A stretch of DNA of 64,000 nucleotides from Blastococcus sp. URHD0036 (lineage in GTDB: Bacteria; Actinomycetota; Actinomycetes; Mycobacteriales; Geodermatophilaceae), in NCBI RefSeq assembly GCF_000701365.1, contig NZ_JNIK01000005.1:62001-126000 (forward strand). Reading direction: 5' to 3'. The translations under genes were made by a program, and so were the position numbers. Each line of letters starts with the position of its first letter. Position 1 is the stretch's first letter. Positions 21,874 through 28,134 of this stretch are shown in pieces. A model generated the notes under the pieces. That model was not told the DNA's origin and searched no databases. It worked only from the letters and a program-made list of their open reading frames with translations.

Positions 21874-23268
21874 TCAGGCGTCGCGGATGCTCCCGGTCTG
21901 TGGCGTCCCGGCCGGTCCGACCGGGAGGTCGAGTACCGCGCGGGTCCCGCCCAGCGGGCTCTCGGAGAGCGAGGCGGTGCCGCCGTGCAGGGACGCCTGC
22001 TGGGCGACCAGCGCGAGGCCGAGCCCCGACCCCGGTGCCCGGGCGGTCCGCCCGCGCCGGAACCTGTCGAACACGGCGACGCGCTCGTCGGCGGGGACCC
22101 CGCTCCCGTCGTCGTCCACGGTGAGCAGCACGCGGTCGCCCGCGACCCGGACGGCGGCGACGACGCGGCGGCCGCCGCCGTGGCGCAGCGCGTTGGCGAG
22201 GAGGTTGTCCGTGGCGAGCCGGAGCGACGCGGCGCTGCCGGGCACCCGGACCTCGGCGGCCGGCAGGTCGGCGGTCACCGCCACGCCGTCCGGGGCGGCG
22301 CGGGCCGCGGCGGCCACCGCCGTGGCCACGAGGTCGGTCAGCTCGACGCCGCCCGGGTCGGCGGCGTGGGTGAGCTCGCCGGCCGCGAGCCGGCCCAGGG
22401 CGACCAGCGTCGCCTCCAGCCGCTCCCGGGTCGCGGCCAGCTGGCGGACGACCTCGGCGCGCTCGGCCGCGGGCAGGTCGGGGTGTGCGGCGAGCACCTC
22501 GATGTCGGTGCGCAGCGTGGTCAGCGGGGTCCGCAGCTCGTGCTCGGCGGCGGCGGCGAAGTCGCGGGCGGCGGCCAGCGCCCGCTCGGAGTCGGCGCGG
22601 GCGGCGTCCACCCGCTCCAGCAGGCCGGTCAGGGCGGCGGCCACCTCCGCGGTCTCGGCCGACCGCAGCACCGGCCCGGCGAGGAGCCCGGCGCGCTCGG
22701 CAGGTCCCGGCCGCCCGCCGAGGGCGGCCGTCCGGTCGCGCAGGGCGCGCAGGGGCCGCAGCGCCGGCCCGGCCAGCAGCCAGGCCAGCCCGGCGGCGGC
22801 GGGGACGGCGAGCGCGGCACCCAGGACGACGGAGCGGCGGACCCGCGCCACGGCCCGGTCGGTCGCGCCGGAGGGCAGGCCCACCGTCACCGTGCCGCCG
22901 GGGACCTCCGCCGTGCGGACGCGGTAGCCGCCCGCCGCGCCGTCCCGCGCGGGCAGGTCGGCGGCCGCGCCGTCCACGGACTCCGTCCGGGTGCCGTCGG
23001 CCGCGCGGACCGTGACCACCAGCCCGCCGAGGGCGCTGCCCGGCAGCGGAGCGGCCGGGTCGAGCAGGTCGGCGGGATCGGCGCCCGCGGCGACACGCGC
23101 GGCCACGGCGCCGGTGACGGCGTCCAGTCGCCGGTCCAGCGCCGACTCCTCGCGTCGGGTGAGCAGCGCGGAGAGGACGGCCGCGACGACGACGGCCAGC
23201 ACGACGGCGCCCAGCCCCGCGGCGACCGCGACCCTCGTCCGCAGCGAGCGGGCGCGCCGGTCAGCCAC
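21874..23268 (-). CDS. Two-component sensor histidine kinase (OmpR-partner type)
   Basis: Membrane sensor kinase of 464 residues. Order: N-terminal membrane helix (about 12-35), an extracytoplasmic sensor of about 110 residues rich in Ala, Asp and Gly, second helix (about 146-168), HAMP segment starting [10 protein letters not shown], dimerisation and phospho-acceptor helix with H243 in [14 protein letters not shown], then the ATPase domain with N box [12 protein letters not shown]1 DDDGSGVP and G2 GSGLGLALV. The sensor domain is not recognisable. The ATG at 23268 lies 8 bases inside the response regulator gene, so the pair is translated together. The signal may relate to the secreted protein encoded first in the operon. 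Confidence 0.92.
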
Positions 23269-23956
23269 GGTGCTCGAGGGTGAAGCCGATGCCGCGGACG
23301 GTGTGCACCAGCCGCGGCGCTCCGCCGGCCTCCAGCTTGCGGCGGAGCTGGCTGACGAACACGTCGACGACGTTGGTGTCGACCGCGAAGTCGTAGCCCC
23401 AGACGAGCTCGAGCAGCCGCTCCCGGGCGAGCACCAGCCCGGCGTTGCGGACCAGCGTCTCCAGCAGGTCGAACTCGCGTCGGGTGAGCTCCACGGGCAC
23501 GCCGTCCACGGTTGCGCGGCGGCGCCCGGGGTCGACGGTCAGCGGCCCGACCGACGACCCGGCCGGGGCGGTGGCCGGTATGCGGCGCAGCAGAGCCCGC
23601 AGCCGCGCGACGAGTTCGGCGAGGGCGAAGGGCTTGACCAGGTAGTCGTCGGCGCCGGCGGCGAGGCCCTGCACGCGGTCGTCGACGGCGCTGCGGGCGC
23701 TGAGCACGAGCACCGGCACGCCGACGCCGTCGGTGCGCAACTGCTCGAGCACCGCGATCCCGTCCCGGCCGGGCAGCCCGACGTCCAGGACGATGACGTC
23801 GGGCAGCGCCGCCGCGACCGCCGCCAGGGCCTCCGTCGCGTCGGCGGCTGTCCGCACGGCCAGCCCGGACAGCCGCAGGCCCCGGGACAGCGAGACCCGG
23901 ATGTCCTCGTCGTCGTCGACGACGAGGACGTCCGGCTGGCCCTGGGGTGCGCTCAC
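23261..23956 (-). CDS. OmpR/PhoB-family response regulator
   Basis: A 231-residue regulator. Receiver domain: acidic pocket VVDDDED, phospho-acceptor D58 in [11 protein letters not shown]87 in LVLSAR and K108 in LVKPF. C-terminal winged helix: [18 protein letters not shown], then [18 protein letters not shown] and RTVRGIGF-like ending [12 protein letters not shown], the OmpR/PhoB DNA-binding domain. GTG at 23956 is the start that places the receiver correctly; it lies 19 bases after the stop of the secreted-protein gene. Regulators of this class bind direct repeats about 11 bp apart, and such an array lies at 24543-24586 in front of this operon. Confidence 0.93.
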
Positions 23957-23975: not shown

Positions 23976-24494
23976 TCAGCCGCCCGACCGGCAGTCCCGC
24001 AGCCGGTCGCGGGCCTCGCGGCGCGCGTCGCGCAGCTCCTGACGCGCCTCGGGGGAGCCGGCCAGGTACTGCCGCGCCGCCTCGGCGCGCTCGCCGACGG
24101 GGACGTCGGCCAGCTCTCCGGCGAGGTCGGCCAGCGCGGGCGAGTCCTGCAGCGTGGCCGAGAGGTCCCCGGCCAGCTCCCACCACCGGTCGCGGACGTC
24201 GGCCCGGAGGTCACGCAGCGCCGCCGCGACGTCGGGGTGGTCGGTGAGGTACTGCCGCCGCGCGTCGGCGCGCTCGCCGGCCGGCAGGGCGCGCAGCGCG
24301 GCGAGCTCGTCGGTCACCTCCGGGTGGGCGGCGAGGAAGTCGGCCACGGCGAGGCGGACGCCAGGGCCCGCGCAGGCGGCACCCGGCGCCGCGGACGGGC
24401 CGCCGTCGGCGGAGGCGACCGACGCGACGGTGACGGGGACGGCGGCGACGACGACGGCCAGGGCGGCGCCGGTGAGCAGGGAACGGAGGTGCAC
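23976..24494 (-). CDS. Secreted duplicated helical protein, hemophore-like (tentative)
   Basis: Exported protein of 172 residues, first gene of an operon with a response regulator and sensor kinase. The signal peptide is clear (hydrophobic core about residues 5-28, likely cleavage after ASA). The mature part is helical and built from two related units offset by 61 residues: 61-104 and about 122-165, each with PXGER, then RQYL, then an Arg/Asp-rich helix. Two cysteines (C41 and C168) bracket the units and could form a disulfide. The HPEV/HPDV spacing resembles actinobacterial haem-binding hemophore-related proteins, but no haem ligand can be named. GTG at 24494 has GAGGAG 6 bases upstream. It could instead be a periplasmic sensor partner. 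Confidence 0.78.
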
Positions 24495-24542
24495 AGTGGT
24501 CTCCTCGGTCGGGGGGTGTGTGGGACCGAGGCTGTCCGCGGG

Positions 24543-24586
24543 CTGTGAGGCGGCCGTGAGCCGACTCTGAGGAGACTCTGAGGCCG
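24543..24586. promoter_or_regulatory. Operator array: four tandem 11-bp direct repeats
   Basis: On the plus strand the 44 bases split exactly into CTGTGAGGCGG, CCGTGAGCCGA, CTCTGAGGAGA and CTCTGAGGCCG, with TGAG at the same place in every unit. Tandem half-sites at 11-bp steps are what OmpR/PhoP-family regulators bind, and the adjacent operon encodes one. The array lies 49 bases before the secreted-protein start codon on one side and 51 bases before the aminotransferase start on the other, so it could control both divergent units. Confidence 0.7.
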
Positions 24587-24623: not shown

Positions 24624-24629
24624 TAGGTT
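24624..24629 (+). promoter_or_regulatory. Candidate -10 element (TAGGTT) for the aminotransferase gene
   Basis: TAGGTT ends 7 bases before the ATG at 24637, so a leaderless transcript is likely. The -35 region (about 24600-24606) is GC-rich and does not match TTGAC, which would fit a promoter that needs an activator bound at the repeats 40-80 bases upstream. Confidence 0.5.
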
Positions 24630-24636
24630 GCCAGGC

Positions 24637-25728
24637 ATGCCGTTGCGCGCCCGCACCCTGCTCGGACCCGGCCCCTCCAACCCCTACCCGGAGGCCACGG
24701 TCGCCCTCGGGCAGCCGCTGCTGGGCCACCTGGACCCGGTCTTCCTCGGCGTCCTCGACGAGACGTCGGACCGGCTGCGGCAGCTGTTCGGGACGGCGAA
24801 CCGGCGCACCCTCCCGCTGTCGGCGACCGGCTCGGCGGGCATGGAGGCGGCCTTCGTCAACACCGTGGGGCCGGGCGACGTCGTCGTCGTGGCGGTCAAC
24901 GGCCTGTTCGGCGAGCGCATGGTCGACGTCGCCTCCCGCTGTGGGGCCGAGGTCGTGCGGGTCGACCACGAGTGGGGGCAGCCGGTCGACGCGGAGCGCG
25001 TGCTGGCCGCCCATCCGGCGCCGAAGCTGATCGCCGCCGTCCACGCCGAGACCTCGACCGGCGTCCGCTCCGACCTCGAGCCGCTCGCCGCCGGCAAGGG
25101 CGACGCGCTGCTGCTGGCCGACTGCGTGACCTCCCTCGGCGGCATCCCGGTGCGGCTGGACGACTGGGGCGTCGACCTCGCCTACTCCGGCTCGCAGAAG
25201 TGCCTGGGCACCGCGCCGGGCCTGGCCCCGTTCACGATCAACGACCGGGCCTGGGAGCGGCGGATCGAGAAGCCGCAGAGCTGGTACCTGGACCTCGGCA
25301 TGCTCGGCGGCTACGCCGGTGAGGCCGCCGGCAGCGGCGGGCGGACCTACCACCACACCGCGCCCACCGGCATGGTCGTGTCGCTGCACGCGGCGCTCGG
25401 CCGGATCCTCGACGAGGGCCTGGACGCCGTGCACGCCCGGCACGCCGAGGCCGGCCGGCAGCTGCACGAGGGGCTGGCCGAGCTCGGCCTGGAGCTGTTC
25501 GCCGCCGAGGGGCACCGGCTGCCCGAGCTGACCACGGTGCGGGTGCCCGAGGGCGTGGACTCCGCGGAGGTCCGCGCCGAGCTGCTCGAGCGGTACGACC
25601 TGGAGATCGGCGGCGGCGTCGGCGCCCACGCCTCGACCGTGTGGCGGATCGGCCTGATGGGCGCCAACGCCCGACCGGACCGCGTCACCCTGGTGCTGGC
25701 CGCGCTGCGCGAGGTCCTCGGCCGGTGA
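24637..25728 (+). CDS. Class V aminotransferase (alanine-glyoxylate/serine-pyruvate type)
   Basis: PLP-dependent enzyme of 363 residues. Seen: N-terminal LLGPGPSNPYPEA typical of the alanine-glyoxylate/serine-pyruvate group, SATGSAGMEAAF around the cofactor phosphate, the ADCVTSLGG aspartate that contacts the PLP ring nitrogen, and the Schiff-base lysine K188 in YSGSQKCLG. ATG at 24637 is chosen because the -10 motif sits 7 bases before it; an in-frame TTG lies at 24628. Amino donor and acceptor cannot be read from sequence. It shares the divergent region with the two-component operon, and its stop overlaps the next gene (GTGA). Confidence 0.9.
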   Translation: MPLRARTLLGPGPSNPYPEATVALGQPLLGHLDPVFLGVLDETSDRLRQLFGTANRRTLPLSATGSAGMEAAFVNTVGPGDVVVVAVNGLFGERMVDVASRCGAEVVRVDHEWGQPVDAERVLAAHPAPKLIAAVHAETSTGVRSDLEPLAAGKGDALLLADCVTSLGGIPVRLDDWGVDLAYSGSQKCLGTAPGLAPFTINDRAWERRIEKPQSWYLDLGMLGGYAGEAAGSGGRTYHHTAPTGMVVSLHAALGRILDEGLDAVHARHAEAGRQLHEGLAELGLELFAAEGHRLPELTTVRVPEGVDSAEVRAELLERYDLEIGGGVGAHASTVWRIGLMGANARPDRVTLVLAALREVLGR

Positions 25729-26672
25729 CCTCTCCCGCACCGGCGGTCGCGGCGGGGACCCCGCCGGGGGACACCCCGGAGCGGGCGCGGCGCGGAACCA
25801 CTCTGCCCGCGGTCGCGCTGCTGCCGCTGGCGGCAGCCGTGTGGTGGATCGGCGGGTTCCTCGGGTGGCTGCTGACCCAGGCGGCCCGGGGCGACGCCGG
25901 GAACGCGACCGCGCTGCCCCTGGACCCGTCAGGGCTCGGCGGGCTGGTGGTCGGCGGACTCGTCGGCGGGGTCGCCGCCGGGCTGCTGACCCGGCTCGCC
26001 GCCCGTCGCCGGTGGGGTCTCGCCGCGACCGCCGGCGGGGTGGCGATCGCCGTCGTCGTCACGCTCGCGCAGTCCTCGGCCGTCGTGCGGGACGCGGCCG
26101 CCGGGACCTTCGCGGCCGACCCGGCGGTGCTCACCGGCCTCATGGCCGTGGCGGGCGGTGCGGCGGCGGCCGGCTGGCTGGCCGGTGCCTGCGCCCTCCT
26201 GGGGTCCGGCGGACCGGCCGTGGGGCTGGGACTCCTCGCCGGCCTGGCGCCGTCCTGGGTGTCCGCCGTCGTCTTCGCGGTGAGCGGCCCGCAGTCGCTG
26301 ACGACCCTCGACCGGGTCGCGACCTGGTCCGGTGCCGCCGTGCTCGCGCTGGCGCTCGTCGTGGCCGGGGTGCGTCCGCCGCAGCGGCTGCTCTGGTGGC
26401 CGCTCGTGGTCGTGCTCGCCTGGTTCGCCGGGCCCGCGCTGACCGCGGTCGTCTACCTGGAGCCCCTGCTGCGGCCGGGGGCCGGGCTGCCGGACACTTT
26501 GTTCGACTCGCTGTCCGGGGCGTGGCAGGTGTTCGAGGCGGCCTCGTCGCCGGACGCCCGGGACCTGGTGCCCTGGGGAGTCGCGGGCGTCACCGCCGCC
26601 GTCGTCGCCGGGGCCCTGGCCGCGCGCCGGGTCAGCGGGGCAGCGCCGCCGGCAGGGGGACGGGCCGGATAG
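25725..26672 (+). CDS. Polytopic membrane protein of unknown function
   Basis: A 315-residue protein with about eight hydrophobic helices (roughly residues 23-45, 66-86, 97-117, 135-157, 162-183, 198-217, 222-246 and 288-308), few charged residues and no recognisable motif. GTG at 25725 overlaps the aminotransferase stop by 4 bases, so the two are likely co-expressed. The last 41 bases overlap the 3' end of the MFS gene on the other strand, an arrangement that leaves no room for a terminator. I do not recognise a family. Confidence 0.72.
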   Translation: MTSPAPAVAAGTPPGDTPERARRGTTLPAVALLPLAAAVWWIGGFLGWLLTQAARGDAGNATALPLDPSGLGGLVVGGLVGGVAAGLLTRLAARRRWGLAATAGGVAIAVVVTLAQSSAVVRDAAAGTFAADPAVLTGLMAVAGGAAAAGWLAGACALLGSGGPAVGLGLLAGLAPSWVSAVVFAVSGPQSLTTLDRVATWSGAAVLALALVVAGVRPPQRLLWWPLVVVLAWFAGPALTAVVYLEPLLRPGAGLPDTLFDSLSGAWQVFEAASSPDARDLVPWGVAGVTAAVVAGALAARRVSGAAPPAGGRAG

Positions 26673-28134
26673 CCGGCGCGGCCGCCGCCTCGTCGGAGTC
26701 GTCGTCCTCGTCGACGTCGTCGGCGCGCAGCCGGACGACGGCCAGCGCCGCGACCGCCGCCGCGAGCGACGCGGCGGCGGCGATCCAGAAGACCCCGAGC
26801 AGTGCGTCGCCGTCGGGCACCGCGACACCTCCGACGACGACGGCGCCCGCAGCCACCACCGCGGCCGTCACGGCGCTCGCCAGCGACGTGCCGACCGACC
26901 GCAGCAGCGTGTTCAGCCCGTTCGCCGACGCCGTCTCCGAGACCGGCACCGACCGCAGGATGAGGGTCGGCATCGCCGCGTAGGCCAGCGACGTCCCGAC
27001 GCTGACCAGGAGCGAGCCCACGAGCACCTGCCACACCTCGGCGTACAGCCACGTCCGCGCGGCGTAGGCGGCCGCCATCCACAGGCAGCCGGCGAGCAGG
27101 GCGATGCCGGGCCCGGTCCGCCGGATCACCGTGGCGGCGAGCGGGGCCATCACGCCGAACACGACCGCGGTCGGGGCCATGACGAGGCCCGCCTGCAACG
27201 TCGTCAGCCCGAGGCCGACCCCGGTGCTCTCCGGGAGCTGCAGGAGCTGCGTGGTGACCAGCATGTTGGCGAACATCGCGAAGCCGACGAAGACCGAGGC
27301 GACGTTGACCATCAGCACCCGCGGCCGCGCGGCGACGCGCAGGTCGACCAGCGGGGCCGCGGTGCGCAGTTGCAGCGGCAGCCAGACCGCCAGCAGCGCG
27401 AGGCCGGTCGCGGCGCAGCCCAGCGTCGCCGCGCTCGTCCAGCCCCAGTGCCCGCCCTTGGAGAGGGCGAGCAGCAGCGCGGTCAGGACGCCGGAGAGCA
27501 GGACGGCGCCCCGGAGGTCGAAGCGGCGGGTCGAGCGGACCGTCGACGGGGAGAGCACGAGCGGCACGGCGAGGAGCACGAGCGCGCCGAGCACGGCCGG
27601 CACCCAGAAGAGCAGGTGCCAGTCCAGGTACTCGACCAGGAACCCGGACAGCGGGAGCCCGGCGCCGGCGCCGATCGCGAGCGTCGCGCTCATCAGGGCG
27701 ATCCCGACGGGCACCCGGTCGCGCGGGAGCTCGTCGCGCATCGCGGCGATCCCGACGGGGATCAGGGCGGTGCCCACGCCCTGCAGCGCCCGGGCGACCA
27801 GGACCTGGGGCAGCGACGCGGCCAGCCCGCCGATGACCGAGCCGGCGACCATCAGCGCGAGGCACACCATGACCATCCGGCGCTTGCCGTACATGTCGGC
27901 CAGCCGGCTCACGGTCGGCGTCGCGACCGCTCCGGCCAGCAGGGTGGTGGTGATGACCCACGAGGCGTCGTCGACCGAGGTGTCCAGCAGCCGCGGCAGG
28001 TCCGGGAGGACGGCGATGACGACGGTCTGCTGCAGCGCGGCGACCGTGCCGCACAGCGCGAGGACGGTGATGACCAGGCCGCTGGGTGCCCGGCGGCCGG
28101 CGCGGCGGGTCCCGCCGTCGGGCCGTCGGGGCAT
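26632..28134 (-). CDS. MFS transporter, DHA2-type (14 helices) drug/solute exporter
   Basis: A 500-residue major facilitator with about 14 hydrophobic segments. Seen: LADMYGKRRMVM, the motif A loop between helices 2 and 3; LVARALQGVGTALIPVG in helix 4, as in DHA2 proteins of the EmrB/QacA group; and GAGAGLPLSGFL in helix 5, the antiporter-type motif C region. The C-terminal tail is acidic (DDVDEDDDSDEA). ATG at 28134 has GGAGGA about 6 bases upstream. Substrate unknown. No regulator gene is adjacent, but an imperfect palindrome lies in the promoter region. It converges with the membrane protein gene and overlaps it by 41 bases. Confidence 0.9.
   Translation of the reverse strand: MPRRPDGGTRRAGRRAPSGLVITVLALCGTVAALQQTVVIAVLPDLPRLLDTSVDDASWVITTTLLAGAVATPTVSRLADMYGKRRMVMVCLALMVAGSVIGGLAASLPQVLVARALQGVGTALIPVGIAAMRDELPRDRVPVGIALMSATLAIGAGAGLPLSGFLVEYLDWHLLFWVPAVLGALVLLAVPLVLSPSTVRSTRRFDLRGAVLLSGVLTALLLALSKGGHWGWTSAATLGCAATGLALLAVWLPLQLRTAAPLVDLRVAARPRVLMVNVASVFVGFAMFANMLVTTQLLQLPESTGVGLGLTTLQAGLVMAPTAVVFGVMAPLAATVIRRTGPGIALLAGCLWMAAAYAARTWLYAEVWQVLVGSLLVSVGTSLAYAAMPTLILRSVPVSETASANGLNTLLRSVGTSLASAVTAAVVAAGAVVVGGVAVPDGDALLGVFWIAAAASLAAAVAALAVVRLRADDVDEDDDSDEAAAAPAIRPVPLPAALPR

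Follow-up and report, generated by a model that had tools for sequence, protein, structure and literature searches.

A short array of direct repeats lies between two divergently transcribed genes in the stretch of DNA analysed here (the window, 64,000 nucleotides), and the question it raises is which of these genes it controls, and in what manner. On one side is an operon for a two-component system; on the other is an aminotransferase gene, followed by a gene for a membrane protein. The initial annotation divided positions 24543-24586 into four 11-base units that share TGAG in register (CTGTGAGGCGG CCGTGAGCCGA CTCTGAGGAGA CTCTGAGGCCG), which a reading of the interval bears out. It placed the array about equally far from both start codons, and the distances are indeed 48 nt to the GTG of the operon (24494-24492) and 50 nt to the ATG of the aminotransferase gene (24637). 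On the minus strand the units begin TCAGAG, TCAGAG, TCACGG and TCACAG, head-to-tail at 11 bp. In the register of the operon, the predicted regulator-binding site is the four-unit array at 24538-24581 (minus strand), shifted by 5 from the earlier coordinates, and consists of TCAGAGTCTCC (unit 1, 24581-24571), TCAGAGTCGGC (unit 2, 24570-24560), TCACGGCCGCC (unit 3, 24559-24549) and TCACAGCCCGC (unit 4, 24548-24538), all on that strand. Our answer, to which we give a probability of roughly 0.8, is that the minus-strand operon is controlled from this array, the predicted binding site of the operon's own regulator.

The first gene of the operon (23976-24494, minus strand, GTG start) encodes a secreted MHB, or hemophore-related, protein (PF16525, TIGR04529). 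The PF16525 match scores 54.1 bits against a cut-off of 27.4, and by eye the hydrophobic stretch at the N-terminus resembles a signal peptide that ends near SVASAD. After a gap of 19 nt comes the gene for a PrrA-like response regulator of the OmpR family (23261-23956, minus strand, GTG start), which has a receiver and a winged-helix C-terminal domain (Response_reg and Trans_reg_C; PF00072 and PF00486 are both above cut-off). The gene for a PrrB-like sensor histidine kinase (21874-23268, minus strand) overlaps the end of the regulator gene by 8 bp. An MHB gene directly upstream of regulator and kinase genes on one strand is the layout of the MSMEG_0243-0244-0246 type. Upstream of the MHB gene, GAGGAG (24501-24506, minus strand) is by eye its likely ribosome-binding site, and a putative -10-like hexamer, CAGCCT (24529-24534, minus strand), begins 3 bp after unit 4.

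The regulator and kinase are of the PrrA/PrrB type. Among solved structures, M. tuberculosis PrrA is nearest to the regulator (1ys6, E 3.9e-80), followed by PhoP (7e-52). The homologues of the kinase found in a gene-order search come mostly from one genus, g19, whose PrrA-like sequence points to Mycobacterium. In a scan of genome contigs, the kinase query matches 17 loci, all of them unrelated kinases at 25-33% identity.

The array can be followed into relatives of the operon. In another genus of the same family (genome G064), the region upstream of the MHB gene reads TCAGGATCTCC TCATGATCGCC TGAGAGTCCCC GCACACCGGGT CCC CAGGCT; the regulator there is 79% and the kinase 61-63% identical to those of the window. 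This second operon is flanked by an aldo/keto reductase gene and by rarA, again in the hisS-aspS-rarA neighbourhood; its divergent neighbour differs from that in the window, and its array is weaker. When an MHB protein is used as a query against two genera of another family, g31 and g45, matches are found in 104 of 118 and 30 of 37 genomes, respectively, and the best 30 loci were taken from each genus. A regulator gene stands beside the MHB gene in all 60. At two of these loci (L187 and L195) the contig ends before the promoter, and leaving them out gives 58 operons for comparison.

The shared promoter layout can be written as a module in which four NCA half-sites repeat every 11 bp and are followed by 3 bp and a -10 hexamer, that is, [NCA(N8)] x4, 3 bp, TAnnnT, with 11 key bases of which a match has at least 10. 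An initial version of the module had three units with 25 nt to the -10; comparison of more loci extended it to four units. The module is present upstream of 55 of the 58 operons (26 of 29 in g31 and 29 of 29 in g45). Since the 11-base rule was set after many sequences, the window included, had already been seen, and the loci come from two genera, 55 of 58 is not a count of independent events. The same threshold is reached by 2 of 5,800 first-order Markov sequences of matching composition, with a further 96 at 9 key bases, and setting the period to 9, 10, 12 or 13 gives 0 of 58 in each case. The three misses are L165 (9/11), L171 (7, with a one-base shift from unit 3 to the -10) and L175 (6). 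The site in the window has 10 of the 11 key bases and that in G064 has 9, a level that 98 of the 5,800 simulated sequences attain.

Scoring matrices give a similar picture. With a matrix made from 26 distinct g31 sites, the array ranks first over both strands of the 64 kb, at 37.0 against -12.0. It comes first with a matrix from 28 g45 sites too, but narrowly (-10.0 against -12.6 for the full module, 3.0 against -4.0 for the array only). Ten g31 and g45 loci from the kinase search that have an MHB gene score 18.8 to 62.1, several of them being training loci, and three homologues in these genera that have no MHB gene (L125, L136 and L139) lack the module, with scores of -19.8, -25.4 and -12.1; the best wrong-strand control is -9.0. 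Four g31 loci (L123, L129, L132 and L134) have, in their best register, a degenerate array, in which the letters of the first two units are changed and the spacing to TACGGT is kept. The proposal that OmpR/PhoP-type head-to-tail half-sites belong to the two-component operon thus holds across genera: the half-sites have one orientation and an 11-bp period, as in sites of the OmpR/PhoB type, and are conserved with the operon.

Two further observations were made at these loci. The MHB-like protein that precedes the regulator in g45 (L193-L222) has about 70 residues as annotated and apparently no signal peptide. At L131 (minus strand, oriented 1751) and L128 (oriented 1484), paralogues of the PrrA-like system are preceded by a different secreted-type gene and keep the geometry of the module with TAACGA-type half-sites, TAACGAAACCC TAATGATTCGC TAACGGGCGCC ... 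TACCTT.

Conservation in relatives that keep the operon had been suggested as a check on the array, and the outcome is divided: three other genera have kept the repeats, and the mycobacterial homologues that were examined lack them. In six g19 loci (mycobacterial by the assignment above; L157-L162) with two MHB genes followed by regulator and kinase genes, the module was not found; scores run from 0.0 to -22.2, and those of L157 (-3.2) and L162 (0.0) exceed the wrong-strand maximum of -9.0. Loci of the MSMEG_0243-0244-0246 type therefore do not share the promoter array, the six scoring at most 0.0 against 18.8 to 62.1 for the loci described above. Nor was the module found in 34 PrrA-type loci of the same presumed mycobacterial genus, where the best score is -9.3 and some loci are above and some below the opposite-strand controls (-17.5 to -33.8 among those listed). 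The array is therefore not universal for the family. The recognition helix offers no explanation on its own: DTNVVDVF is identical in the window, G064, g31 and g45 wherever it was read, and the helices of PrrA-like regulators are nearly invariant in systems with and without the module alike.

How the regulator might hold such a site can be considered with PhoP of M. tuberculosis, which binds as a tandem dimer to direct repeats of the 7-bp motif TCACAGC separated by a 4-bp spacer, and binds rows of three and four motifs more tightly than rows of two (PMC4832192). Asn212 and Val213, among the six positions of PhoP that contact bases, touch the TCA part (PMC4832192). The regulator retains the equivalents of these two, and a further two positions carry similar residues (E to D, Y to F); at the positions of Glu215, Ser216, Tyr217 and Tyr220 it has D, V, F and Q. 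The kept Asn and Val together with the altered other contacts would fit a conserved TCA and a changed remainder. We envisage that two tandem dimers of the phosphorylated regulator would line up head-to-tail on the four half-sites, in the manner of PhoP. With CAGCCT taken as the -10, the row would cover about -59 to -16 and stand in for a -35 element. The pho box lies roughly where units 3 and 4 lie. The operon would in this manner control its own level, and of the two possible modes we lean somewhat towards class-II-like activation over repression. The promoter reading carries a caveat in the -10-like hexamer, which is TAnnnT in the g31 and g45 operons, but CAGCCT in the window and CAGGCT in G064. 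A weaker suggestion, made by analogy, is that the secreted MHB protein may feed the kinase its signal (heme or redox); an MHB protein has been proposed as the signal partner of the kinase in the case of MSMEG_0243 (PMC7516205), and HbpS-SenS-SenR is a known pathway of this sort.

Autorepression is a possible mode too, though the less likely of the two. Here the regulator would cover the -35 region, reach the -10 and be released by the phosphatase activity of the kinase. The position of units 3 and 4 suits this, as a row that comes within 3 bp of the -10 could block polymerase, and expression of msmeg_0243 goes up when MSMEG_0244/0246 are deleted (PMC7516205). Against it, a simple scan found no -35-like element that polymerase could use unaided, and the mycobacterial loci examined are without the module, so the comparison with msmeg_0243 may not carry over.

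Four NCA half-sites, 3 bp and TAnnnT might be the first readable DNA code of the MHB-paired branch of PrrA-like regulators, a suggestion we make tentatively: a four-subunit row reaching the -10, in a private feedback loop with nearly a single target. If this is true, the TAACGA-type sisters at L128 and L131 would show a fixed geometry with diverging letters, and with it insulation between paralogues.

The array could instead be bound, and this operon controlled, by a different member of the OmpR family encoded in the genome, for example a PhoP homologue. Unit 4 does begin with TCACAGC, the exact PhoP motif of M. tuberculosis (PMC4832192), PhoP is the second-nearest solved relative of the regulator, and the regulator has 33 matches in the genome at E <= 0.001. 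We consider this unlikely. The module travels with the operon across genera, and the genome has its close form only once, a pattern more in keeping with a private autoregulator than with a global regulator.

The uniqueness of the close form was assessed at several levels. In the window, TGAG(N7) x4 with up to 2 mismatches finds this array only, as one exact match and an overlapping match shifted by 11 bp (2 mismatches). In the whole genome (5,175,939 bases in 19 contigs), exact matches to three TGAG at 11-bp spacing are confined to the array (two overlapping matches); allowing 1 mismatch adds one further place, and the reversed control pattern gives 2. The looser pattern TCA(N8)TCA(N8)TCA has 7 matches besides the one at the array (reversed control, 0), with module scores of -9.2 to -47.6 against 27.1 at the array. 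The best of the 7, L228 (G000:C1:98588-98612), has four NCA units at an 11-bp period and matches 9 of 11 key bases; it scores -9.2 and by eye adjoins a tRNA-like gene. No -10 was found at the matching distance from its four units, and with this and its score we do not claim it as a second target. Judged from these scans, the operon looks to be the only strong target in this genome, and a weaker regulon is possible.

On the other side of the array is a class V aminotransferase gene (24637-25728, plus strand), which belongs with aspS to an old core neighbourhood, followed by a gene for a membrane protein without a family match (25716-26672, plus strand). An MFS efflux-type gene (26632-28120) lies between the membrane gene and an AKR2-rarA pair. 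The array was thought to switch on both the aminotransferase and its membrane partner, and serving the two directions at once would agree with its location 50 nt before the ATG and with a simple scan, in which no sigma-70-type promoter is seen there. The comparison of loci makes this very unlikely. Of 112 genomes in the family, 64 have the aminotransferase (E <= 1e-50) and 2 have the kinase (E <= 1e-60), the latter being the genome of the window and G064. In the 30 best-matching loci from the 64 genomes, the window included, TAnnnT precedes the aminotransferase ATG without exception (by 7 nt in 26 and by 6 nt in 4, the latter 4 read by eye). The array is conserved with the gene in 1 of the 30, which is the window itself, with a matrix score of 30.2 against at most -14.0 in the other 29, all of which keep TAnnnT. 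In the window the hexamer is TAGGTT (24624-24629, plus strand), 7 nt before the ATG and outside the array module, and from its position we take it as the -10 box of a gene that seems to be transcribed leaderless. The initial annotation was right that this -10 has no -35; it took this to indicate dependence on an activator, but the lack of a -35 is the usual state in relatives' loci and hence not a sign of one.

Gene order points in the same direction. In both genomes of the same genus, aspS and the aminotransferase gene are neighbours, 186 and 113 bp apart, and none of the operon genes was found in the 18 kb around them. The distance is about 60 bp in G056 and about 590 bp in G052, where the operon is also absent. 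Conversely, G064 has the operon and the array, and no aminotransferase was found there at E <= 1e-50. Of four neighbourhoods in relatives that hold the aminotransferase, one has the membrane gene, which speaks against that gene as a co-target. As read from these arrangements, the operon is accessory and arrived next to an older gene, whose leaderless promoter predates the operon at this location. A lineage-specific side effect of the array on the aminotransferase may exist in this one strain. Taken together, the module at 55 of 58 operons, the ranking by the g31 matrix and the absence of the array from other aminotransferase loci support the proposed autoregulated response regulator well, and do not support control of the aminotransferase.

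A separate feature was seen upstream of the aminotransferase in other genomes (L033, L046, L048, L053 and others): a palindromic intergenic repeat, TTGATCATCGGCNNGTGGC, facing an inverted copy. There are 13 occurrences of the pattern in the same-genus genome G001, 5 in G078 and 2 in G110 (reversed control, 0), and 0 in the genome of the window and 7 other relatives searched.

That the array is a functionless chance repeat in GC-rich DNA is hardly credible: it is short and imperfect, and the window has 123 other rows of short tandem repeats at a low threshold, but its close form is unique in the genome, TGAG(N7) x4 appears in none of 100 dinucleotide shuffles of the window, and the identical spacing of the module in other genera contradicts the idea.

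The array is well supported, on comparative grounds, as an element of an ordinary kind, the autoregulatory site of a PrrA-like regulator. What is new is the conserved four-unit layout alone, of which no description was found in the literature searched. A binding site for PrrAB was likewise not found in the open-licence literature searched; in passages of PMC6898941, 'binding site' occurs 0 times. PrrAB matters in mycobacteria, and the three-gene signalling operons related to it have received little study; for this group the layout supplies a concrete, testable site and promoter arrangement. The target is corrected as well, as the repeat goes with the signalling operon and not with the neighbouring metabolic gene.

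Several known systems can be compared with this one. The initial annotation knew of no described system with this gene content; the operon proper, however, matches MSMEG_0243-0244-0246 of M. smegmatis, which encodes an MHB protein, a PrrA-like regulator and a PrrB-like kinase and is co-transcribed, as seen by RT-PCR (PMC7516205). Heme binding by MSMEG_0243 has been demonstrated (PMC7516205). The two operons have the same three kinds of genes in identical order, with the secreted MHB protein first and a PrrA/PrrB-like pair after it. In contrast, the mycobacterial loci of this type that were examined carry a further MHB gene upstream and no four-unit module, and the term 'direct repeat' occurs 0 times in the main text of PMC7516205.

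The sites of M. tuberculosis PhoP resemble the array in their 7-bp half-sites, 4-bp spacers, single orientation and 11-bp period, and unit 4 starts with the PhoP motif itself. They differ in that units 1 and 2 here begin TCAGAG, the conserved key is just NCA, and the regulator is nearer to PrrA. In E. coli, the pho box of PhoB consists of 11-bp direct repeats that stand in for a -35 element. The array is predicted to replace the -35 in the same way, but with four units rather than one pair, ending 3 bp from the -10. The PhoB motif is CTGTCAT(A/T)4CTGTCAT (PMC4832192). In Streptomyces, HbpS-SenS-SenR joins a secreted heme-responsive protein, a kinase and a regulator in one pathway (PMC4991794, PMC3754957). 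Similarly, the operon described here would associate a secreted MHB-type protein with a kinase and a regulator, as judged from the genes alone. HbpS is of another protein family and SenR of another class of regulator.
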